From positions 1 to 34,285 of the forward strand of contig JAKOVI010000002.1 of assembly GCA_029782135.1 (NCBI GenBank): 34,285 nt of DNA, in the 5' to 3' direction. The translations under genes were made by a program, and so were the position numbers. How positions within the stretch are numbered: the stretch's first letter is position 1; each line of letters starts with the position of its first letter. This document shows, piece after piece, positions 6,698-22,493 of this stretch. The notes under the pieces were generated by a model. The model was not told the origin of the DNA. It ran no database searches and was given only the letters and a program-made list of their open reading frames with translations. Source of the DNA: Bacillota bacterium. Its GTDB lineage: Bacteria > Bacillota > UBA4882 > UBA10575.

Positions 6698-6725
6698 CTC
6701 CCGTGGCGGCGGGAGGATTTTTTTA
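6698..6725 (+). terminator. Rho-independent terminator after RNase J
   Basis: CTCCCG (6698-6703) pairs with CGGGAG (6710-6715) around a 6-base loop, followed by GATTTTTTT. It starts 12 bases after the RNase J stop codon and separates that gene from aroE. Confidence 0.75.
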
Positions 6726-6807
6726 TCTCTTGAGATCTTTTCTTCGGAAGACGATTGAATTAAGGCTGAAACGGAAAGCCGGAGGATGGGTTGAAGGAGG
6801 ACGAAGC

Positions 6808-7677
6808 TTGTTTATTGACCAGGTAAAACTGTACGGTGTTTTTGGGGATCCGGTGGCACACTCGCTTTCTCCCCATTTTCAAAACGAAGCTTTTAAACTC
6901 TTAGGAGTTAACGGATTGTATTTAAAATTCCGGATTACCGCGGAGCAGTTGCCGGCGGCGATCGCGGCGGTTCGTTGTCTGGAGTTTGGCGGGGTAAACA
7001 TCACCATCCCGCATAAAGAGGCGGTCACCCCTTATTTGGACCGGTTGGAGGGTGATGCCAAGTTAACCGGTTCGGTGAATACCATCTTACGGCGGGACGA
7101 CGAGTTAATCGGGTATAGTACCGACGGGGAAGGCTTTCTGCTCTCCTTACGTCACCAGGCCGGTTTCGAGCCAAGGGGAAAGAAGGTTATTCTCCTCGGT
7201 GTGGGGGGCGCAGCACGGGCGCTTGCCTTCCGGTTGGTGCAGGAGGGGATCGCTGCGCTCTATCTGGTCGGGCGGGACCGGGAAAAGACGGAGCGCCTCT
7301 GTCAGGCGCTCCGGGAAAAAACCGGTTTCTCCGCAGAAGCAGTTCTCTTCGGGACTTCCCGGTTAAAGATGATCGCCGCCCAAGCCGGCCTGGTAGTGAA
7401 TACTACTCCGCTGGGTATGTACCCGGAGACGAAACTTTTCCCGCCCTTTCCTCTGGAGGATTGTCCGCGGGACTGTTTGGTCTGTGATTTGATCTACCAT
7501 CCTTTGACCACGACATTTTTGCGCAGGGCCGGCGCGTTGAAGCTGCCAACGTTGAGTGGGTTGGGGATGCTGGTCTATCAGGGTATTTTGGCCTGTCAAA
7601 TCTGGACTGGTCTAACGCCGCCGTTTTCCCCGTTATATCAGCTACTGGAGGGAATTCTCCAACAGGAGGAGCAATGA
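6808..7677 (+). CDS. aroE: Shikimate dehydrogenase (NADP+)
   Basis: A 289-residue enzyme reducing 3-dehydroshikimate to shikimate in the cytoplasm. Visible motifs: SLSP at 19-22 for substrate binding; NITIPHK ending in catalytic K70; NT at 91-92; STDGEG with D106, the partner of the catalytic Lys; LGVGGAARALAFRL for the NADP fold; and NTTPLGMYP. The open frame reaches back to 6703, but the upstream part overlaps the RNase J terminator and does not resemble AroE. TTG 6808 is preceded by AAGGAGG at 7 bases, and the protein then has normal length. It heads the shikimate cluster. Its stop overlaps a small ORF with its own good ribosome site. Confidence 0.95.
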   Translation: MFIDQVKLYGVFGDPVAHSLSPHFQNEAFKLLGVNGLYLKFRITAEQLPAAIAAVRCLEFGGVNITIPHKEAVTPYLDRLEGDAKLTGSVNTILRRDDELIGYSTDGEGFLLSLRHQAGFEPRGKKVILLGVGGAARALAFRLVQEGIAALYLVGRDREKTERLCQALREKTGFSAEAVLFGTSRLKMIAAQAGLVVNTTPLGMYPETKLFPPFPLEDCPRDCLVCDLIYHPLTTTFLRRAGALKLPTLSGLGMLVYQGILACQIWTGLTPPFSPLYQLLEGILQQEEQ

Positions 7678-7813: not shown

Positions 7814-9514
7814 ATGGGCGGTGGCCGGTTGGTCCGGAAACGAATGTTGACTGTTTTGCTCCTTTCCTTGTTTTTTCTTCTTTTTTCGTTCTGCGGGATA
7901 GGACAGGGGCTTACCCTCTCGGAAGTTGATCTGAACGAGACCGGATTGCGGGAGGCTTTAAGAAGCTTTGCAAAAACAGGAGGTTTCCGGATCTTAATCG
8001 ATCCGGGTGTCCAGGGGAGGGTCACTTTAAGACTGAAGCCGGGACTTACCGCACAGAAGGCGGTTGAGTCACTGGCGCAGCTTTATGGTTATGATTGCCA
8101 GTGGGAAGGGGAGACAGCGATTGTAGGACCGGAAGGAACGGGCGGCAGGCGTGGTGAAGTGAAACCCCGTGTCTATACGTTGCAGCATGAGCCGGCGGCC
8201 TGGCTGTTCGAAGCCCTGGAAGGTGTGGTGCCGGCGGAACGGATCAGTTTTCATGCGGCAACCCGGCAGTTAACAATCACAGCGGATGCTTTGGAAGATG
8301 AAAACCTCCGGGAGATCATTGCCCGGTATGACCGGCCGGTGGTCAGTTACTTAATTGAGGTGAAGATTGTCGAGTTGGATCGGAACGCTGTCATTGAGAA
8401 GGGGTTGTCATCGATGCTACCCGGTTCTGCGGCGGAATCTTCCTTTCGCGTTTCGACTTTAGAAACCGACCCGTTGGCTGTCCTGGGTGATCAGAAGCTT
8501 TATTCGGTCCTGAGCGAACTGCAGGTTGTTACCGGGCATGGGGAGGCTAAATCGGCCTTTGTCGGCGAGCAATATCCAGTTCTTACGTCGCGGCCCGGTG
8601 AAAAGATGGATTTACTGGAGTATAAAAAGGTCGGAATCAACATTGGACTCACCCCCTATGCCGAAGAGCAAGGAAGGGTTATCCTGGCGACGAACCTTGA
8701 GGTCAGCGGTTTGGCGGACGGGGAGAAAGCTGCCGGCCGGCAAGGGGCGCCGGTGCTGAAGAACAATCAAATTAGCTCGCTCCGCGGCCTGCAGGACGGG
8801 GAAACCTGTGTCATTGCCGGGATTAACTATACCGGGAGGAGTTCCACCCGGGAAGCGGCGGAAGGCCCGCGAAAGGAGAAAGTAATCTGCCTTCTCCTGA
8901 CGCCCCGTTTGGTCACCGCGGAACTGCGGGCAGAGCTAAAAAAGGTTCCAGGCACCGGGTTGGTTGAGGCCAGTCCCAAGCCTGGTCCGGGTGGGGGAGA
9001 TGAACTGCCGGGAACACCCGAGGTTGTGCAGATTGCCATTTCCGGCCAAAGCAAGGCAACGGCCGGAGGTGAACTGCCGGCGAGTGAAGTGTTGACGGAG
9101 GTGGTTGGTCTGGCCAAGCCGGGAGGCCAAACCAGGCCGGGCGAAGCGGCGGCGAAGCAGAAGGAGGAAAGCAACCCTATTGTCCTGCGGGTGGCCTACC
9201 GGGTCAGTAAAGGAGATACTGTTTTTTCGATTGCCCGGAAATACGGGGTTGACCCGGCGCTTATTTTGGCGGAGAATCAATTAACAGCCTCCAGTATCCT
9301 GAGTATCGGTCAGACCTTGCGGATTCCGATCCGCCAAAACCAATTGTATCAGATCCAACCGAAGGAGACTTTATGGCGGATAGCCCAGCGTTATGGTACA
9401 ACAGTGGAGATTTTGATGGAGATCAACAGTATTGAAGATGTTACAACTTTACGGACGGATCAGGTGATTATCTTACCGGTCCCGGTCGATCGAATCGTTA
9501 ATGACCAATACTAG
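7814..9514 (+). CDS. Secretin-domain protein with two C-terminal LysM domains
   Basis: A 566-residue exported protein. A basic start and hydrophobic stretch (residues about 11-30) form a signal peptide. Then comes an STN-like (secretin/TonB N-terminal) domain (about 35-95), an N1-like linker domain (about 105-175), and a secretin core (about 176-368). The core shows the family pattern YKKVGINIGLTPYAE, a V-L-K-N-N-Q segment, GLQDGETCVIAGI and a closing LLLTPRLV. A Pro/Gly/Ala-rich linker (about 375-455) leads to LysM 1 (462-507) and LysM 2 (512-556), which should bind peptidoglycan. Secretins form ring channels in outer membranes for type IV pili or type II secretion. No pilM/N/O, ATPase or prepilin genes are in the window. 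An unusual domain order; best read as a PilQ/GspD relative anchored to the wall. Confidence 0.85.
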   Translation: MGGGRLVRKRMLTVLLLSLFFLLFSFCGIGQGLTLSEVDLNETGLREALRSFAKTGGFRILIDPGVQGRVTLRLKPGLTAQKAVESLAQLYGYDCQWEGETAIVGPEGTGGRRGEVKPRVYTLQHEPAAWLFEALEGVVPAERISFHAATRQLTITADALEDENLREIIARYDRPVVSYLIEVKIVELDRNAVIEKGLSSMLPGSAAESSFRVSTLETDPLAVLGDQKLYSVLSELQVVTGHGEAKSAFVGEQYPVLTSRPGEKMDLLEYKKVGINIGLTPYAEEQGRVILATNLEVSGLADGEKAAGRQGAPVLKNNQISSLRGLQDGETCVIAGINYTGRSSTREAAEGPRKEKVICLLLTPRLVTAELRAELKKVPGTGLVEASPKPGPGGGDELPGTPEVVQIAISGQSKATAGGELPASEVLTEVVGLAKPGGQTRPGEAAAKQKEESNPIVLRVAYRVSKGDTVFSIARKYGVDPALILAENQLTASSILSIGQTLRIPIRQNQLYQIQPKETLWRIAQRYGTTVEILMEINSIEDVTTLRTDQVIILPVPVDRIVNDQY

Positions 9515-9535
9515 AGAATGGTGGTGATCAGCGTA

Positions 9536-9811
9536 ATGAAGAACTTTGCGGAAGACGTTATCATTGAGGTTTTTGAGGAGATCAAGGGCACCAATCCCAA
9601 TTTTTGCAACTGTGAGAAATGCCGGCGCGATGTGATTGCCCTTGCGTTGACGAAGATCAGAGGCCGGTACGCTTGCAGTCCGGAAGGGGAGATATTTGCC
9701 CGGGTGGAACAGTCCGATCGTCAGGTGCGGGCCGATGCGCTTTTTGCCGTGATGGAAGCCATGGACACCGTGATCAAGCGCCCGCGCCATTCCGAGGAAG
9801 AAAGATCGTGA
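9536..9811 (+). CDS. ComFB-family protein
   Basis: A 91-residue protein of the late competence ComFB family. The pattern ED.I.EV..EI, then CNCEKCRRDVIALALTKI (Cys 24, 26 and 29), then RYACSPEGE and a C-terminal helix are all typical. ComFB is coded in the Bacillus comF operon; some relatives in cyanobacteria bind cyclic dinucleotides. A role in metal binding or DNA uptake cannot be shown from this sequence. ATG 9536 is preferred over ATG 9518 because GGTGGTGAT is well spaced before it; the 9518 start would add six residues. The gene sits between the secretin-like gene and aroC, 21 bases after the former and 32 before the latter, so it is probably in the same transcript. Confidence 0.85.
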   Translation: MKNFAEDVIIEVFEEIKGTNPNFCNCEKCRRDVIALALTKIRGRYACSPEGEIFARVEQSDRQVRADALFAVMEAMDTVIKRPRHSEEERS

Positions 9812-9843: not shown

Positions 9844-11058
9844 ATGCGCTTTTTAACATCAGGGGAATCACATGGCCAAGCGCTGGTAGCGGTGATCGAA
9901 GGGTTTCCTGCCCGGGTCAGAATCGACAAGGATGAGATCGACCGCGAACTGGCCCGGCGACAGATGGGTTATGGGCGCGGGGGACGGATGAAAATCGAAT
10001 CAGACCAAGTGGAGATCCTTTCCGGTGTACGGCAGGGGTTAACCATTGGCAGTCCGATCTGTTTGAAGATCGCGAACCGGGACTGGGTGAACTGGGCGCC
10101 GGTGATGGAGCCGTTTCTCCAGTCGATACCGGAGGAGGTTGCGATCAAAGAAGATCCTCGCCTCGCAAAAGTGGCGCCGGTCGTTACCATCCCGCGCCCA
10201 GGCCATGCCGACCTGAGTGGAGCGTTAAAGTATGGTTTTACTGATCTGCGTAATATTATCGAACGTGCGAGCGCACGGGAGACGAGCGCCCGGGTGGGGG
10301 TTGGCGCTATCGCAAAACAATTGTTGAAAGCGTTTGGGATCCGGATTGGCAGTTATGTTCTTTCGATCGGGCAAGCGGAGAGCGGACCGGTTCAACCGTT
10401 GACCCCGGAGCAGCAAGCGGAGGTTGACCGGTCACCGGTGCGGGTGTTTCCTCCAGAAGCGGCGGCGGCAATGATCAATTTGATTGATCAAGCCCGCCAG
10501 AACCAGGAGACACTGGGCGGAACCTTTGTGGTGTACGCGACCGGATTAATACCGGGCCTTGGTTCGCATGTCCACTGGGATCGCCGGTTAGACGGACGCC
10601 TGGCGCAGGCGGTTATCAGTATTCCCGGGATCAAGGGAGTCGAGTTTGGCGCCGGTTTCAAAACCGCAGCCCTGCCCGGTTCCCAGGTCCATGACCCGAT
10701 TACCTATTCACCGGAGACCGGTTTCCGGCGAACGGCCAACCGGGCAGGAGGTCTTGAAGGAGGAATTACTAACGGCGAGCCCCTCCTTTTGACCGCGGTC
10801 ATGAAGCCGATCCCGACCTTGTATCAAGGTCTACCGAGCATCGATCTCGAAACGCTGGAACCGGTGAGGGCGAGGGCCGAGCGTTCGGATTTGACGGCGG
10901 TTCCGGCAGCCGGGGTTGTCGCGGAGGCGATGGTCGCCTGGGTTTTGGCCGATGCGTTGCTCGAGAAATTCGGGGGTGATTCGCTTCCCGAAATGAAACA
11001 AGCGTGGCTTGCTTATCAGGAGGGATTGCGTGGAAAAGGTAAAGGAGGAAAAGACTAA
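9844..11058 (+). CDS. aroC: Chorismate synthase
   Basis: A 404-residue enzyme that turns 5-enolpyruvylshikimate-3-phosphate into chorismate with reduced FMN as cofactor, the last shared step of aromatic biosynthesis. Motifs: GESHGQALVAVIEGFP at the start, RRQMGYGRGGRMKIE, RPGHADLSGALKYG, and the signature DLRNIIERASARETSARVG. C-terminal part has GGLEGGITNGEPL. Length is near the usual 360-400. The start ATG has GGAGGAG just upstream. Its end overlaps aroK by 29 bases, which suggests coupled translation. Confidence 0.97.
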   Translation: MRFLTSGESHGQALVAVIEGFPARVRIDKDEIDRELARRQMGYGRGGRMKIESDQVEILSGVRQGLTIGSPICLKIANRDWVNWAPVMEPFLQSIPEEVAIKEDPRLAKVAPVVTIPRPGHADLSGALKYGFTDLRNIIERASARETSARVGVGAIAKQLLKAFGIRIGSYVLSIGQAESGPVQPLTPEQQAEVDRSPVRVFPPEAAAAMINLIDQARQNQETLGGTFVVYATGLIPGLGSHVHWDRRLDGRLAQAVISIPGIKGVEFGAGFKTAALPGSQVHDPITYSPETGFRRTANRAGGLEGGITNGEPLLLTAVMKPIPTLYQGLPSIDLETLEPVRARAERSDLTAVPAAGVVAEAMVAWVLADALLEKFGGDSLPEMKQAWLAYQEGLRGKGKGGKD

Positions 11059-13431: not shown

Positions 13432-13469
13432 TTGGCAGGGAAACTTCCTTCCGGTTGAGGAGAACAGGC

Positions 13470-14483
13470 ATGGAAAAAACCAAAAAGCCCTCGAGCAGGG
13501 ATGTGGCCAGGGAGGCCGGTGTTTCCCAGGCGACTGTCTCCTATGTGCTCAACAATGTACCCGGCGTCAAGATCAAAGAAGAGACCAGGGAAGCAGTGCT
13601 GGCGGCCGCCCGGAAATTGAATTATTACCCAAATGAGATTGCCCGGAGTATGCGCTTGAAGAAGGCAATGTCGATTGGCGTTGTCTCCGATAAAGACCTT
13701 TCCAATTTTCGTTTGATGAAGATCCTGGAGGGGATTAAGGATGCGCTTCTCCCCAAAAATTACTCCATTACCCTCTGTTTCGACAAACAGAACGGCCCGA
13801 TCGAACAGGCCGAATCGGTCCGGTATTACCGTTCGAACCGGATCGAGGGAATTATCTTTGTCTATACGGAACTGAGGGAGGAGGATTACCGGTATTTACA
13901 TGAGCATAAGGTCCCCTTTGTCGTGATCAACTCGCACCAGAACCAGTCGCTTAGCAACCAGGTACAGAATGATATGGAACAGGCGCTGATCACGGCGCTC
14001 CTTAGCCTAAAGAACGCCGGAAAAGAGGAAGTGGCCTTTCTCGGCCTGCAGGATCGAAGCCCGTTGGACCGGCGCTTTCGCGGGTATTTAAAAGCTTTGG
14101 CTGCTTGTGGCCTCCCGGCGGAAGAACGCCTGTGTATGCGGGCACCCGGCAAGGCCGAGGAGATCGAGGAGTATCTTGAGGCCTATTACGCGGAGCATCA
14201 ACGGCTGCCGGCGGCCATCCTTTGTGAAAGCGCGGGGATCGGTTTTCGCCTCTTACGCTTCGCGGCGCGAAAGGGGGTGACGGTCCCGGAACAACTGTCG
14301 GTCATTGCCATCGGCTCTTCCCGTTTCAGTACGTTATCATACCCTGCCTTATCAACCATTGAAAATCCTCTGTACGAGATGGGTTATACCGGATGTCAAT
14401 TGCTTTTCAATTTGATTGAAGGAAAACCCGCCCAAAGTATCATTACCCTTGAATGGAGGTTTGTTCCACGCGAGTCAAGCTAA
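13470..14483 (+). CDS. LacI-family transcriptional regulator
   Basis: A 337-residue repressor-type regulator. The N-terminal helix-turn-helix reads SSRDVAREAGVSQATVSYVL with VLNN following, then the hinge region NYYPNEIARSMRLKKAMSIGVV, then a periplasmic-binding-protein-like effector domain to the C terminus. ATG 13470 is chosen over the TTG at 13455 because GAGGAG lies 7 bases before it. The gene is followed by a heterodimeric ABC exporter 72 bases downstream. Matching operator-like palindromes precede both genes, so autorepression and repression of the exporter are likely. LacI proteins usually bind sugars or nucleosides; the effector cannot be read from the sequence. Confidence 0.92.
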   Translation: MEKTKKPSSRDVAREAGVSQATVSYVLNNVPGVKIKEETREAVLAAARKLNYYPNEIARSMRLKKAMSIGVVSDKDLSNFRLMKILEGIKDALLPKNYSITLCFDKQNGPIEQAESVRYYRSNRIEGIIFVYTELREEDYRYLHEHKVPFVVINSHQNQSLSNQVQNDMEQALITALLSLKNAGKEEVAFLGLQDRSPLDRRFRGYLKALAACGLPAEERLCMRAPGKAEEIEEYLEAYYAEHQRLPAAILCESAGIGFRLLRFAARKGVTVPEQLSVIAIGSSRFSTLSYPALSTIENPLYEMGYTGCQLLFNLIEGKPAQSIITLEWRFVPRESS

Positions 14484-14528
14484 AAGGAGCTTTTTTGGAT
14501 AAAACTGAGAATAATATTGTGTCAACAA

Positions 14529-14542
14529 TTTATACGTATAAA
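14529..14542 (+). promoter_or_regulatory. Perfect LacI-type operator palindrome before the ABC exporter
   Basis: TTTATACGTATAAA is a perfect 14-base palindrome with central CG. It ends two bases before the AGGAG ribosome site (14544-14548) of the first exporter gene and lies downstream of TAATAT (14512-14517), a -10 candidate. Binding here would block initiation or elongation. Confidence 0.7.
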
Positions 14543-14555
14543 CAGGAGCGGAGAA

Positions 14556-16313
14556 ATGGTTAAGAAGTATATCAAAGAGTTTCTGTGGACCCATAAAGTG
14601 AAGTATATCTTAGGGATTACCGCTTTAATCTGTTCCGGGATTCTAACCCTTGCCGTACCGAAACTGTTAGGTTACATCATTGATTGCCTGGAGAAGCGAA
14701 CCGTCAGCCCCGGCAGGATTGCCTGGTTGACCGGCGGGATGTTGTTGATGGCGGTGGTCATCTTTGGTTTGAAGTATCTTTGGCGCAATCTCCTGATGGG
14801 GAGGGCGCGGGATCTGGAGTGTTATCTCCGGGACAAGTTTTTCGCTCATTTACAGACATTGCCTCTTAAGTTTTACCACCAAAAGAAGACCGGCGATCTC
14901 ATGGCCTATGCGATTAATGATCTGGGCGCGATCCGGCGGGCGTTTGCATTTGGTTTGGTCTCTTTGATCGATGGTGTGCTCATCAATTCTTCTTCCTTGT
15001 TTGTGATGGCAAAGACGATTAACCTGCGCTTGACTTTGATCGGACTCGCCCCCCTTCTGATGGCGTTGGTCGTGATCTTTATCGTCAAGAATCCGTTGCG
15101 CCGCAGTTTTGTAAAGGTGCAGGCGGCATACGCCAATATTTCTGAGAAGACGCAGGAAAACATCTCTGGAATTCGCGTCGTCAAAGCTTATGTGCAAGAG
15201 GAAGCGGAGAAAAAGAAGTTGGAGGCGGCGAGCCTTCAACGTATGCGGGTGATGCTGGATTACATCAAACTCTCCTCCCTTGTGGGGCCGACGGTCCAGA
15301 TCTGTTTTGGGTTGAGCTTCTCACTGGTCCTTGTTTTTGGTTCCGCTTATGTGGTTGAGGGCTTAATAACCCTCGGCGACTTTATCGCCTTCAATACTTA
15401 TTTGACGATGTTGCAACGGCCGATCAGGCATATTGCCAGGATCGTCGAGGTGTGGCAGCGGGCGATGGCTTCGAGCAACCGTTTGGATGAGATCTTTTTA
15501 ACGCAAAGTGATATTGTGGATGACCACCCGGTCCCGGTCAAGGAGCGTTTCGACGGGGCGATCGAGGTAAGGAATCTTAGTTTTACATACCCGGGCACTG
15601 AAGTGGAAGTCCTGAAGAACATCAGTTTTAAGCTTGAAGCCGGTCAGACATTAGGCTTGATTGGCCCGACGGGCAGCGGGAAGAGCACCTTGATCAATCT
15701 CTTGTTGCGCCTTTATCCGGTACCGCGCGGTCATATTTTTATTGACGGGATTGAGATTAATGATCTTCCGTTGGCAACCCTCCGGGAAAACTTTGGTTAT
15801 GTTCCGCAGGATAATTTCCTTTTCTCGGCGTCGATCAATGACAATATCCGCTTTTTCTCCGACCGGTTCACCCGGGAAGAAGTCGAGGCGGCCGCCCGTT
15901 TTGCCAGCGTGTATGAGAATATTATGGAGTTTCCGGACGGTTTTGAAACGATCATCGGCGAACGGGGGATTACCCTCTCCGGCGGACAGAAGCAAAGGGT
16001 GGCAATTGCGCGGGCGGTGATCAAGGACCCGTCGATTTTGGTGCTTGATGACAGCCTGTCGGCGGTCGACACCCAAACCGAGGCGGAGATTCTCACCCAT
16101 ATCAAGGAGATTTTAAAAGACCGGACCGGAATCATTATCGGGCACCGTGTCTCTTCGCTGAAGCATGCCGATTGGATTATTGTCCTGGATGAGGGCAGGA
16201 TCATCGAAGCAGGTGACCATCAACAACTGATGGCGAAGCGGGGCTATTATTACCAGTTGTACCAGAAACAATTGGTAGAGAGCAGATTACAGGAAGTTGG
16301 GGAGAGCGTATGA
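14556..16313 (+). CDS. ABC exporter subunit 1 (degenerate Walker B), TMD-NBD half transporter
   Basis: A 585-residue half transporter of the type found in heterodimeric multidrug/lipid exporters (LmrC/BmrC/TM287-like). Six hydrophobic helices lie in residues about 15-300. The ATPase domain has Walker A GPTGSGKST (370-378), signature LSGGQ (474-478), Walker B ILVLDD and H530 in the switch. The catalytic Glu after Walker B is Asp (D499), the mark of the degenerate partner. The ATG at 14556 follows AGGAG by 7 bases; the upstream frame to 14517 would run across the operator. The stop overlaps the start of subunit 2 (ATGA). The exported substrate is unknown. Confidence 0.93.
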   Translation: MVKKYIKEFLWTHKVKYILGITALICSGILTLAVPKLLGYIIDCLEKRTVSPGRIAWLTGGMLLMAVVIFGLKYLWRNLLMGRARDLECYLRDKFFAHLQTLPLKFYHQKKTGDLMAYAINDLGAIRRAFAFGLVSLIDGVLINSSSLFVMAKTINLRLTLIGLAPLLMALVVIFIVKNPLRRSFVKVQAAYANISEKTQENISGIRVVKAYVQEEAEKKKLEAASLQRMRVMLDYIKLSSLVGPTVQICFGLSFSLVLVFGSAYVVEGLITLGDFIAFNTYLTMLQRPIRHIARIVEVWQRAMASSNRLDEIFLTQSDIVDDHPVPVKERFDGAIEVRNLSFTYPGTEVEVLKNISFKLEAGQTLGLIGPTGSGKSTLINLLLRLYPVPRGHIFIDGIEINDLPLATLRENFGYVPQDNFLFSASINDNIRFFSDRFTREEVEAAARFASVYENIMEFPDGFETIIGERGITLSGGQKQRVAIARAVIKDPSILVLDDSLSAVDTQTEAEILTHIKEILKDRTGIIIGHRVSSLKHADWIIVLDEGRIIEAGDHQQLMAKRGYYYQLYQKQLVESRLQEVGESV

Positions 16314-18046
16314 AGCAGATGAACCAGAACACATTTCTCAGGGTATTAAAGTATTTCCGGCCATTTATTGGCTTGGTCTGTTTGGCGGCGTTCTTGGCAT
16401 TCCTGGTGAATATTACGGATCTGGCCGGCCCGTATATCGTAAAAATTGCGATTGATGATTACATTGTCGGGCAGAAAGCCAGGGAAGGGATCAAACTCAT
16501 AGGCCTCGTTTATTTTCTCTCGGTTTTGGTCGGGGCTTGCTCCAACTATTTCCAGAACTATGTCTTAAACTCGATCGTCCAACAGATCATGCATAATATC
16601 CGGATGGAACTCTTCGCCCATATTCAACATTTACCGCTGCAGTTTTTTGACCGGAACTCTTCCGGACGGATCCTGACGCGGGTGACCAATGACGTGGAAT
16701 CTTTGAATGAGATGTACTCCGGGGTCTTGGTGATCCTGTTTAAAGATCTTTTTCTCCTGGTCGGGATTGTGGCGGCGATGCTCCGTTTGAATCTGCGTTT
16801 GACTTTCCTTAGCTTTTCGGTGGTCCCGATCATTGTGGCGGTGACCTTTTTATACCGGACGAAAGCCCGGGAGAATTTTAAACGGGTGCGTGCCCTCATT
16901 GCCCGGATTAACGGCTTTTTGGCCGAAAACATCTCCGGAATGAAGCTTGTCCAGATCTTTCACCGGGAACGGGAGAAGTACCGGGAGTTTAAACAGTTGA
17001 ATGACGAGTATAACCGGGCGAGTATCTTTGAGGTCGCGCTCACTGCCCTCTTCCGCCCTTCGGCCGAATTGATTAATAACCTTGGGATCTCCTTACTGAT
17101 CTGGTATTGTACGCCCGGGATCTTTGCGTCGACGGTGGAGATTGGCGTCTTGTACGCCTTTATCAGCTATATCAAGAAGTTCTTCGGTCCGATTAATGAC
17201 CTGGCCGATAAGTATAATGTGATTCTCTCCGGAAATGTCTCCGCCGAGCGGATCTTCGAGCTGATGGATCATAATGAAGGTCTGGAGGAGATGACGAGCG
17301 GCCGGCCGTTAACCGAATTGAAAGGGAAGATTGAATTTAAGAATGTCTGGTTCGCTTATCACGATGAGGATTGGGTCTTAAAAGATGTCAGTTTCACGGT
17401 GAATCCCGGCGAAACTGTAGCCTTCGTCGGTGCGACCGGGGCGGGGAAGTCCACCATTATTAGTCTGTTGAGCCGGTTTTACCAGATCCAAAAAGGAGAG
17501 ATCCTGCTCGACGGGGTGAACATCAACGAGTACCGGCTGGAAGATTTACGCCGCAGGGTCTCCGTGGTCATGCAGGATGTTTTCCTCTTCGCCGGGACGA
17601 TCGAGTCGAACATCCGGTTGAATAATGAGGAGATTACCCCGGAGGAAGTGAAGCGTGCCGCGGAATACGTGAACGCCGATCATTTTATCCGGAGACTGCC
17701 CGGTGCGTATGCGGCGGAAGTTAAGGAACGTGGGTGTACGCTCTCCGCCGGGGAGCGGCAGTTGCTCTCGTTTGCCCGGGCGGTGGCTTTTAACCCGTCC
17801 ATTTTGGTCCTTGATGAGGCAACGGCGAATATTGATACGGAAACGGAGCTTTTAATCCAGGATTCGCTGGCGAAAATCGCTAAAAACCGGACGATGTTGA
17901 TCATTGCGCACCGTCTGTCGACGATCCAAAGGGCCGACAAGATTATTGTGATTCATAAAGGCCGGATCCGGGAGATGGGAAAGCACGAGGAACTGCTGTC
18001 CCAAAATGGAATCTACCGGCATCTTTACGAGATGCAGTATGCTTAA
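16310..18046 (+). CDS. ABC exporter subunit 2 (consensus catalytic Glu), TMD-NBD half transporter
   Basis: A 578-residue partner of the preceding gene, starting on its stop codon. Six helices precede the ATPase domain with Walker A GATGAGKST (374-382), altered signature LSAGE (478-482), Walker B with catalytic E503 in LDEATANID, and switch His in AHRLSTIQRAD. The consensus ATP site would use this subunit's Walker motifs with the LSGGQ of subunit 1, while the second site pairs D499 of subunit 1 with the LSAGE here. This is the known asymmetry of heterodimeric exporters. A GC-rich hairpin at 18119-18146 follows. Confidence 0.94.
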   Translation: MKQMNQNTFLRVLKYFRPFIGLVCLAAFLAFLVNITDLAGPYIVKIAIDDYIVGQKAREGIKLIGLVYFLSVLVGACSNYFQNYVLNSIVQQIMHNIRMELFAHIQHLPLQFFDRNSSGRILTRVTNDVESLNEMYSGVLVILFKDLFLLVGIVAAMLRLNLRLTFLSFSVVPIIVAVTFLYRTKARENFKRVRALIARINGFLAENISGMKLVQIFHREREKYREFKQLNDEYNRASIFEVALTALFRPSAELINNLGISLLIWYCTPGIFASTVEIGVLYAFISYIKKFFGPINDLADKYNVILSGNVSAERIFELMDHNEGLEEMTSGRPLTELKGKIEFKNVWFAYHDEDWVLKDVSFTVNPGETVAFVGATGAGKSTIISLLSRFYQIQKGEILLDGVNINEYRLEDLRRRVSVVMQDVFLFAGTIESNIRLNNEEITPEEVKRAAEYVNADHFIRRLPGAYAAEVKERGCTLSAGERQLLSFARAVAFNPSILVLDEATANIDTETELLIQDSLAKIAKNRTMLIIAHRLSTIQRADKIIVIHKGRIREMGKHEELLSQNGIYRHLYEMQYA

Positions 18047-20982: not shown

Positions 20983-21066
20983 ATGGGAATTGATCCTGTG
21001 GGGGAAGACTGTCGTTTTAATCGTGTGGAAATAGAGAAGAAGGAAGGCAGTCGGAGGTGTTTTTGA
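20983..21066 (+). CDS. Possible upstream leader peptide
   Basis: A 27-codon ORF (begins MGIDPVGEDCRFNRV) with CGGAGA 6-7 bases before the ATG. Its TGA overlaps the ATG of the next gene (TGATG), a layout often seen in translational coupling. The peptide itself has no known motif, so it may be chance. Confidence 0.3.
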   Translation: MGIDPVGEDCRFNRVEIEKKEGSRRCF

Positions 21067-22493
21067 TGCGCAAGTTACAATGGGTCGTATCTTTCCTCCT
21101 CTTGTTGGCCGTTGGCTCCAGCGTGGTGCGGGCATTCGAAAGTCCGATAGATGAATCGGCAGTGGTGAAAACCGGGAATTTAACTTTATTGGAACCAAAA
21201 GAGATTATTGTGGAGGAGAAATTGCTCCATCTCACCCTGGATGGCGACTATACCCATGTCTATGCGTACTATAAAATGCTCAACCCGGGACCGGAAGACC
21301 GGATCAACTTGGGGATTCCGGTCGTCTATCTTAAAGAATCGGAGTTTTATGGGTTAGCCTGGCAGGAAGAGAGTTTCTTCGCCTACCAGATCAGCGATGA
21401 ACAGGGAATGTTGGATGTACAAGAATATATGGACGAAAAACCGGAGATTGTCATTCTGGACGGGAAAAAAAGGGATGTGATCCGTAAATGGTATGTAACG
21501 GAAGTGAACTTTCCGGCGAACGGCCGGAAAGAGTTCGTGGTAAGTTACACGGTCCGCAATTCATTTCTAGACAAAGATTCAGTCTCTTCCTTTTTCCCCT
21601 ATTACTCGGACCGTCTGTTTAACTATAGTTTTATCCCGTCCGGCGGTTGGGGGAACGACCTGATCAAAAACTTCAAAATCGTCGTCGATGCGCGCGAGAA
21701 TCTTAAGAACGGAGCGGTAATTAAAAGCCTTGGGTTCGAAGATTTTTACGGCTTTGGCGGGTTGTATATCTTTGAAACCCAAAACTTCAACCTCCAAACG
21801 CTCCCCGAGTTAAAGATCTTGTATGATAACTCCGCGGCTTTATATACGGAATTAATCAATGCTTATCAAGTCCGGAAGGAGAATATCGTTGGTCTGCAAT
21901 CTTCTTCCGCTTTACCCGGGCATGCCCCGGCCAATTTGCTGGATTCCGATCTTCGCACCGCTTGGATCTCCGGTCAAACAGGAGTCAACGAACCGGTCTG
22001 GATTGAAATCAGTTTACAGGACTTTTGCCTGCAGGCGGTCGGGATCATTAACGGGTTGCCGGTTAGTCAAGATACTTATTATGCCTATAGCCGGATTAAA
22101 CGGTTGAAGATCGAGATTGAGCTGGACGAGTATGATTACTTTATGGACAAGACGAAAAAGGTATTATTTGAGAAAGAAGTAGAGCTTGAGGATAAACCGT
22201 CCCGGAGTTTTAATCCGGTGGCTTTTGCCCCGTTTGTTTCGGTTTTGGCGGACTTGGGCCAGTCCTTTAACCAAGCATACCGGGTACGTTTAACGGTTTT
22301 AGAGGTTTATCCTGGTACTAACCAGCAGACTTGTATTTCCGAACTTTTCTTGCTGGGTTATAAAAACGATCAAGACTTTGCGAATCACGATCAATTCTTC
22401 GATTATGAAATCGCTGCCTATCCTGATGAATTCTTTGAGGATGCCGGTGAAATCTTTGCGGATCCTGATGAATTATTTGATTACCATGAATAA
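21066..22493 (+). CDS. Secreted protein with C-terminal discoidin-like (NADase-type glycan-binding) domain
   Basis: A 475-residue exported protein. A signal peptide (residues about 1-23, ending VVRA) is followed by a beta-rich region (about 30-260) resembling DUF4424-like extracellular domains. A discoidin-like domain (about 270-430) contains ALPGHAPANLLDSDLRTAW, IEISLQD and INGLP, the pattern of NADase-type glycan-binding domains. The last 45 residues are very acidic with repeated short motifs such as DQFFDYE, DEFFEDA and DELFDYHE. ATG 21066 is chosen over GTG 21057 because CGGAGGTG lies 6 bases before it. Probably surface or extracellular and carbohydrate-binding; this is inference. A terminator hairpin follows. 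Confidence 0.75.
   Translation: MRKLQWVVSFLLLLAVGSSVVRAFESPIDESAVVKTGNLTLLEPKEIIVEEKLLHLTLDGDYTHVYAYYKMLNPGPEDRINLGIPVVYLKESEFYGLAWQEESFFAYQISDEQGMLDVQEYMDEKPEIVILDGKKRDVIRKWYVTEVNFPANGRKEFVVSYTVRNSFLDKDSVSSFFPYYSDRLFNYSFIPSGGWGNDLIKNFKIVVDARENLKNGAVIKSLGFEDFYGFGGLYIFETQNFNLQTLPELKILYDNSAALYTELINAYQVRKENIVGLQSSSALPGHAPANLLDSDLRTAWISGQTGVNEPVWIEISLQDFCLQAVGIINGLPVSQDTYYAYSRIKRLKIEIELDEYDYFMDKTKKVLFEKEVELEDKPSRSFNPVAFAPFVSVLADLGQSFNQAYRVRLTVLEVYPGTNQQTCISELFLLGYKNDQDFANHDQFFDYEIAAYPDEFFEDAGEIFADPDELFDYHE

Follow-up and report, generated by a model that had tools for sequence, protein, structure and literature searches.

Secretins are almost always studied within pili or secretion machines, and a secretin gene standing between aroE and comFB in a shikimate cluster raises the question of where such a gene came from and what its product can still do. 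We addressed this question in the window, the whole 34,285-nucleotide stretch analysed here, which is an entire contig of a 2.38-Mb genome that is 96.6% complete (G000). The gene is an intact 566-codon open reading frame on the forward strand (7814-9514) and encodes a PilQ-derived secretin-like protein of 566 residues (P0001) with two C-terminal LysM domains. It provided the single match to the Secretin family PF00263 in the whole genome, and the first-pass annotation was right in describing a lone secretin between aroE and comFB.

The protein begins with a hydrophobic signal peptide (residues 1-31; 7814..7906), 51.6% identical to that of the sister species, in which inspection of the sequence revealed no canonical lipobox. 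An N0 domain follows (residues 39-88; 7928..8077), where PF21305 (type_II_gspD_N0) scored 20.4 bits, below the Pfam cut-off of 27 bits, and where the solved PilQ 6w6m also matched. The next domain, N1/Secretin_N-like, is weak (residues 119-175; 8168..8338; PF03958, E 0.096); the same family reached E 0.0016 in the sister-species orthologue and was clear in relatives linked to type IV pilus (T4P) genes. The secretin core (residues 227-346; 8492..8851) scored 46.3 bits against PF00263 (cut-off 27.5), and its match spanned profile positions 5-131 of 169 only, leaving the C-terminal end incomplete. This defect, revealed by profile coverage, had gone unnoticed in the first-pass annotation. A Pro/Gly-rich linker (residues 371-457; 8924..9184), 58% identical to that of the sister species and with a dN/dS of 0.24, leads to LysM domain 1 (residues 462-505; 9197..9328) and LysM domain 2 (residues 511-555; 9344..9478), as originally described. 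The two PF01476 stretches totalled 90.5 bits, above the Pfam cut-off, and aligned to the solved LysM pair 4uz2. All these features lie on the forward strand. At the level of whole-protein models, the NCBIfam entry TIGR02515 (IV_pilus_PilQ) gave 45.6 bits, below its curated cut-off of 284.35, under which two T4P-linked copies of the same class also fall (156-157 bits), and NCBIfam type_II_gspD gave 51 bits for a cut-off of 351. An AlphaFold model of the full protein, built from an alignment of two rows only, had a mean pLDDT of 34.9 and a pTM of 0.23, too low for the model to inform on the barrel. Promoter and terminator scans around the gene gave no more matches than chance.

The surroundings of the gene are conserved. 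Upstream lies aroE (6703..7677, forward strand; Shikimate_dh_N 95 bits), identified also by synteny. Downstream are comFB (9536..9811, forward strand; PF10719, 64.5 bits), of the cyclic-dinucleotide receptor family, and aroC (9844..11058, forward strand), followed by aroK, aroB and aroQ to 13328, all on the same strand. The comFB frame opens at 9518 with a likely ATG start at 9536, and this is the only ComFB gene of the genome. The order rnjA-aroE-[secretin-LysM]-comFB-aroC-aroK-aroB-aroQ recurs throughout the family: the secretin-LysM gene with its aroE/comFB neighbours was found in 16/16 family genomes, contig ends splitting the gene in G003, G012 and G013. Its reading frame is intact in every family copy without a contig-end cut. 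The orphan seemed to be missing in G012, an absence due to a contig break, as its LysM end was found at a contig start. The gene order is therefore common in relatives, which the first-pass annotation had listed among the findings that would count against it. A contig scan matched only a genome of the same genus, an unclassified Bacillota MAG. In a family relative (L090), the GNAT and oxaloacetate decarboxylase genes come immediately after aroQ, whereas in the window a regulator of the LacI family and two genes for ABC exporters (13455-18046) intervene; locus L033, from the same genus, seems to carry the same insertion. Further along, 21057-22493 encodes a secreted-looking 478-residue protein whose sole Pfam match was the NADase_transloc F5/8 type C domain (48 bits).

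Secretin genes normally lie beside pilus or general-secretion genes, and the first-pass annotation had asked whether pilus genes occur elsewhere in the genome. Searches of the window genome for T2SSE (PilB/PilT/GspE), T2SSF (PilC/GspF), PilM_2, Peptidase_A24 (prepilin peptidase) and N_methyl pilins gave no match, so that a pil set at another locus was rejected; the same searches gave matches in control genomes and relatives. Four other genomes of the family (G001, G002, G007 and G009) likewise had no match to T2SSE, T2SSF, PilM, prepilin peptidase or N_methyl pilins. No T2SSE match was found in G012, G013 and G015, T2SSE being the one pilus family searched there. None of the type IV filament genes searched for is left in the window genus or in several further genomes of the family. 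ComEC is kept in all five genomes without any of the searched pilus families. Omp85, present in 30/31 genomes searched, gave three matches in the window genome; an outer membrane therefore exists and the cell is diderm.

The first-pass annotation had considered the domain order unusual, on the ground that LysM-bearing secretins usually carry LysM before the ring. This proved wrong in the present lineage, where the C-terminal pair is the rule: all the T4P-linked PilQ proteins of the class that were tested and complete enough bore two LysM domains at the C terminus, and the order is thus that of its standard PilQ, found also in at least one protein outside the class (L097). A profile search in 299 genomes of the phylum placed end-of-profile matches essentially in the same class, plus G224 and, more weakly, G271. 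The few secretins of outer-membrane Firmicutes examined previously had shown no distinctive architecture (Denise et al. 2019, PMC6668835), and our literature searches found no description of a secretin-LysM fusion. The C-terminal LysM fusion is a feature of the lineage and not an oddity of the window gene.

Comparison of loci accounts for the position of the gene. In G016, a genome of the same order, exactly the interval from aroE to comFB-aroC is taken up by pilB, T, C, A, D, M, N and O, a PilP-like gene and pilQ, and the PilQ of this cluster ends in a C-terminal LysM pair. The window locus thus corresponds to this site stripped of every pil gene but the secretin. In G008, G017, G020, G021 and G023, the PilQ-LysM gene closes a pil cluster located elsewhere. 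In a maximum-likelihood tree, 14 orphans of the family formed one clade (100/99) nested among T4P-linked PilQ-LysM proteins and sister to the T4P-linked copies of genus g3 (98/95); this clade held when the longest branch was removed (99/99). The family f5 orphans (G020, G022 and G025) were placed elsewhere in the tree, and a single origin of all orphans was rejected (forced grouping, p-AU 2e-10). Orphan secretins arose at least twice, the long branches in the tree making the order of duplications less sure than this double origin. Given the G016 pil cluster at the same site and the nesting of the orphans in the PilQ-LysM tree, it is well supported that the window gene was once the secretin of a type IV pilus, a PilQ with a C-terminal LysM pair, that in a diderm Bacillota lineage it closed a pil cluster situated between aroE and comFB-aroC, and that it remained when the other pil genes left the locus.

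Several variants of these genes were met during the survey. The pilus-linked PilQ of G016 (L051:8162-10155, reverse strand) lies in two overlapping frames, N0-N1 (283 residues) and secretin-LysM (381 residues), reflecting either a natural gene split or an assembly frameshift. Genomes of genus g3 carry a third PilQ-LysM paralogue of 542-563 residues (L071:1903-6812, L067), with a Secretin score of 30 bits in G008; in G003 and G008 it directly follows a gene for a 1,052-1,094-residue carboxypeptidase-regulatory-like-domain protein with its own C-terminal LysM pair. The f5 genomes G024 and G028 (L079:355-5201, L077:4336-9013) have a pilMNOPQ-like set in aroE/comFB context with no motor genes beside it, a state midway from a complete pil cluster to an orphan.

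The main change in the orphan protein concerns the secretin core. Seven T4P-linked proteins (L042, L045, L046, L048, L050, L051 and L079) matched nearly the full Secretin profile with 101-165 bits, whereas the 15 scored orphans adjoining aroE/comFB reached 15-70 bits, without overlap. In ten family orphans (the window genus, the scored members of genus g2, G005 and G006) the PF00263 match ended at profile position 89-132 of 169. Their alignment shows a ...GETCVIxG[IL] strand soon before ...GPxKxKxxCLxLTP, the VPxxxxIPLLGxLF stretch between them being gone, which is why the Pfam match stops early. The site of the deletion (residues 338-350; 8825..8863, forward strand) holds 13 residues in the window protein (NYTGRSSTREAAE) versus 30 in the T4P-linked PilQ of G021, including VPGFSKIPLLGALF, and the motif is absent in 10/10 close family orthologues, window protein included. 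When a profile of the ten orphans was compared with solved PilQ and GspD chains, the alignments stopped just before this site. The amphipathic loop is described as the most conserved segment of secretins and as the one that starts their insertion into the outer membrane (PMC6532946, PMC7545093); from its position and conservation, we take the deleted stretch to be this amphipathic helical loop. Two glycines, G251 and G274, are invariant in the ten loop-less orthologues and presumably correspond, by their position, to those flanking gate 1. Other orphans differ in extent: that of G004 keeps a degenerate loop motif (LSELPVIGGII), and in those of G003, G008 and G010, genomes of genus g3 where a T4P-linked copy is also present, the core is almost unrecognisable (17.8 bits in G008).

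Is a protein so truncated still useful to the cell? Selection was estimated from simple pairwise Nei-Gojobori dN/dS values, at dS 0.24-1.1. Between the two species of the window genus, dN/dS came to 0.17 over the whole gene. By region it rose from 0.046 in the LysM pair, which at 93% identity between the species is the best-conserved region of the protein, to 0.14 in N0, 0.18 in the core and 0.24 in the linker. Orphans of genus g2 gave 0.10-0.13 for the core, so that the two genera together span 0.10-0.18 for the core and 0.05-0.11 for LysM. In genus g3, the core of T4P-linked PilQ gave 0.11-0.17 versus 0.43 for that of the orphan, whose LysM region gave 0.16. Thus, in genomes that have lost the pilus, the shortened core is about as constrained as that of a pilus secretin (0.10-0.18 versus 0.11-0.17), and where a pilus copy coexists, the orphan core is relaxed while LysM is still constrained (0.43 versus 0.16). 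The window gene is still under purifying selection.

Which function is then being preserved? We give an about even chance to the proposal that this former PilQ-LysM is now a peptidoglycan-bound periplasmic scaffold or ring rather than an ordinary outer-membrane channel, its exact job being something we infer. The protein would be exported to the periplasm, where its two LysM domains would, judging from their family, bind peptidoglycan. PilQ itself is a 12-15-mer ring in the outer membrane; in the orphan, N0 and the shortened core probably still fold and may still form a ring. Because the stretch taken as the amphipathic loop is deleted, the protein has most likely lost the ability to enter the outer membrane and form a large gated channel there; its role could be that of a peptidoglycan-bound scaffold or an envelope-organising ring. 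The wall-anchored outer-membrane channel of the first-pass annotation is thus not supported in its ordinary sense. Its second suggestion, a secretin fold reused possibly with ComFB, fared better: reuse is probable and ComFB is a conserved neighbour, the link between the two being one of adjacency.

ComFB is a c-di-AMP/c-di-GMP receptor that controls pili in cyanobacteria (PMC12313861). From gene adjacency, we propose that expression, and perhaps activity, of the secretin-derived protein could be coupled to this cyclic-dinucleotide receptor. The adjacency is a hint and not a proof, since ComFB, single-copy in the class, can adjoin rnjA or aroE without any secretin, as in G021, G019 and G026. 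A GGDEF diguanylate cyclase protein is encoded on the same contig (32990-34090; PF00990, 108.7 bits); c-di-GMP synthesis is therefore plausible, and this protein is a possible source of the ComFB ligand. The fuller proposal, in which a loop-less secretin orphaned at least twice would act as a stand-alone peptidoglycan-anchored periplasmic ring tied to ComFB, with no type IV filament machinery, is tentative, and we hold it with a good deal less confidence than the scaffold itself.

The strong purifying selection on a core that retains both presumed gate glycines means that a pore could still be present. A still working outer-membrane channel, anchored to the wall by LysM and operating without a pilus, for example in DNA or polymer uptake with ComEC under the control of ComFB, would agree with a constraint as strong as that of pilus secretins, with the invariance of G251 and G274 and with the retention of ComEC in the five genomes lacking the searched pilus families. 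However, the motif taken as the membrane-inserting loop is missing in 10/10 orthologues, and the searches brought up no pilin, assembly ATPase or platform protein that could drive uptake; ComEC, for its part, occurs commonly in bacteria with no known competence. We regard such a channel as possible but doubtful, on a par with the ComFB-tied ring. A tether or spacer between outer membrane and peptidoglycan, with the ring at the outer membrane and LysM arms in the wall, alongside tethers such as OmpM, would fit a diderm cell in which the LysM pair is the best-conserved region of the protein, and diderm Firmicutes do depend on special tethers (PMC10628300). But the loss of the presumed amphipathic loop, together with the missing lipobox, leaves no evident outer-membrane anchor, and we judge this role unlikely. 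The disappearance of the pilus from the window genome and the badly degraded, relaxed core of the g3 orphans would fit a gene that no longer has a function and is decaying as a remnant of the pilus cluster; this is very improbable given the frames intact in every uncut family copy, the low dN/dS of core and LysM in the window genus and g2, and the two independent origins of such orphans.

The ancestor of the window gene is ordinary and its fate is what is interesting: a secretin-derived protein persists under purifying selection although its whole machine and the presumed insertion stretch have apparently been lost. If the ComFB-tied ring of the fuller proposal is real, it would be a new kind of envelope device built from a pilus leftover. 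Confirmation of the protein's survival would reveal the capacities of a secretin's periplasmic part by itself and the way in which PilQ of diderm Bacillota may be anchored by a C-terminal LysM pair, and would provide a natural deletion series for testing the role of the amphipathic loop. Annotators should not read a pilus into a 'type II/III secretion system' or 'PilQ' label at this locus.

Among known systems, GspD shares N0 and secretin domains with the window protein, as seen in the G011 copy. This copy differs in having several N domains, a full secretin core, no LysM match and a place within a gspE-F-pseudopilin cluster, whereas the window genome has no GspD, T2SSE or T2SSF and the window protein scores under the GspD family level. 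Such GspD-like proteins of 837-855 residues occur in G004, G005, G006 and G011, in a separate type II secretion-like cluster that the window genome does not have; G014 has the gspE-F part of such a cluster (L063), and cluster loci elsewhere are L058, L062, L089 and L059. TsaP/FimV-type proteins, which anchor PilQ or help its assembly, resemble the window protein through LysM alone, that is, peptidoglycan binding next to a secretin; they are separate proteins with no secretin core (in part after PMC7545093), whereas LysM and secretin would here be fused in one chain. In another Bacillota lineage, the 830-residue PilQ of G224 (L097) bears a C-terminal LysM pair and lies directly upstream of aroC. 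It and the weaker case of G271 (L098), in which LysM falls below the Pfam cut-off, share a pilC ... pilQ-aroC neighbourhood and so resemble the window gene in lying near aroC, but have a full secretin core (168-175 bits), more N1 domains and adjacent pil genes. The PilQ-LysM proteins of the class (e.g. L042:9634-11568, L045:8026-9981) differ from the window protein by their Secretin scores (131-165 bits in L042, L045, L046, L048, L050 and L051 versus 46), their VPxxxxIPLLGxLF motif and their pil genes, but show the same order of N0, N1, secretin core and LysM pair, and with that of G016 the window gene also shares its neighbourhood, aroE ... pilQ-comFB-aroC.
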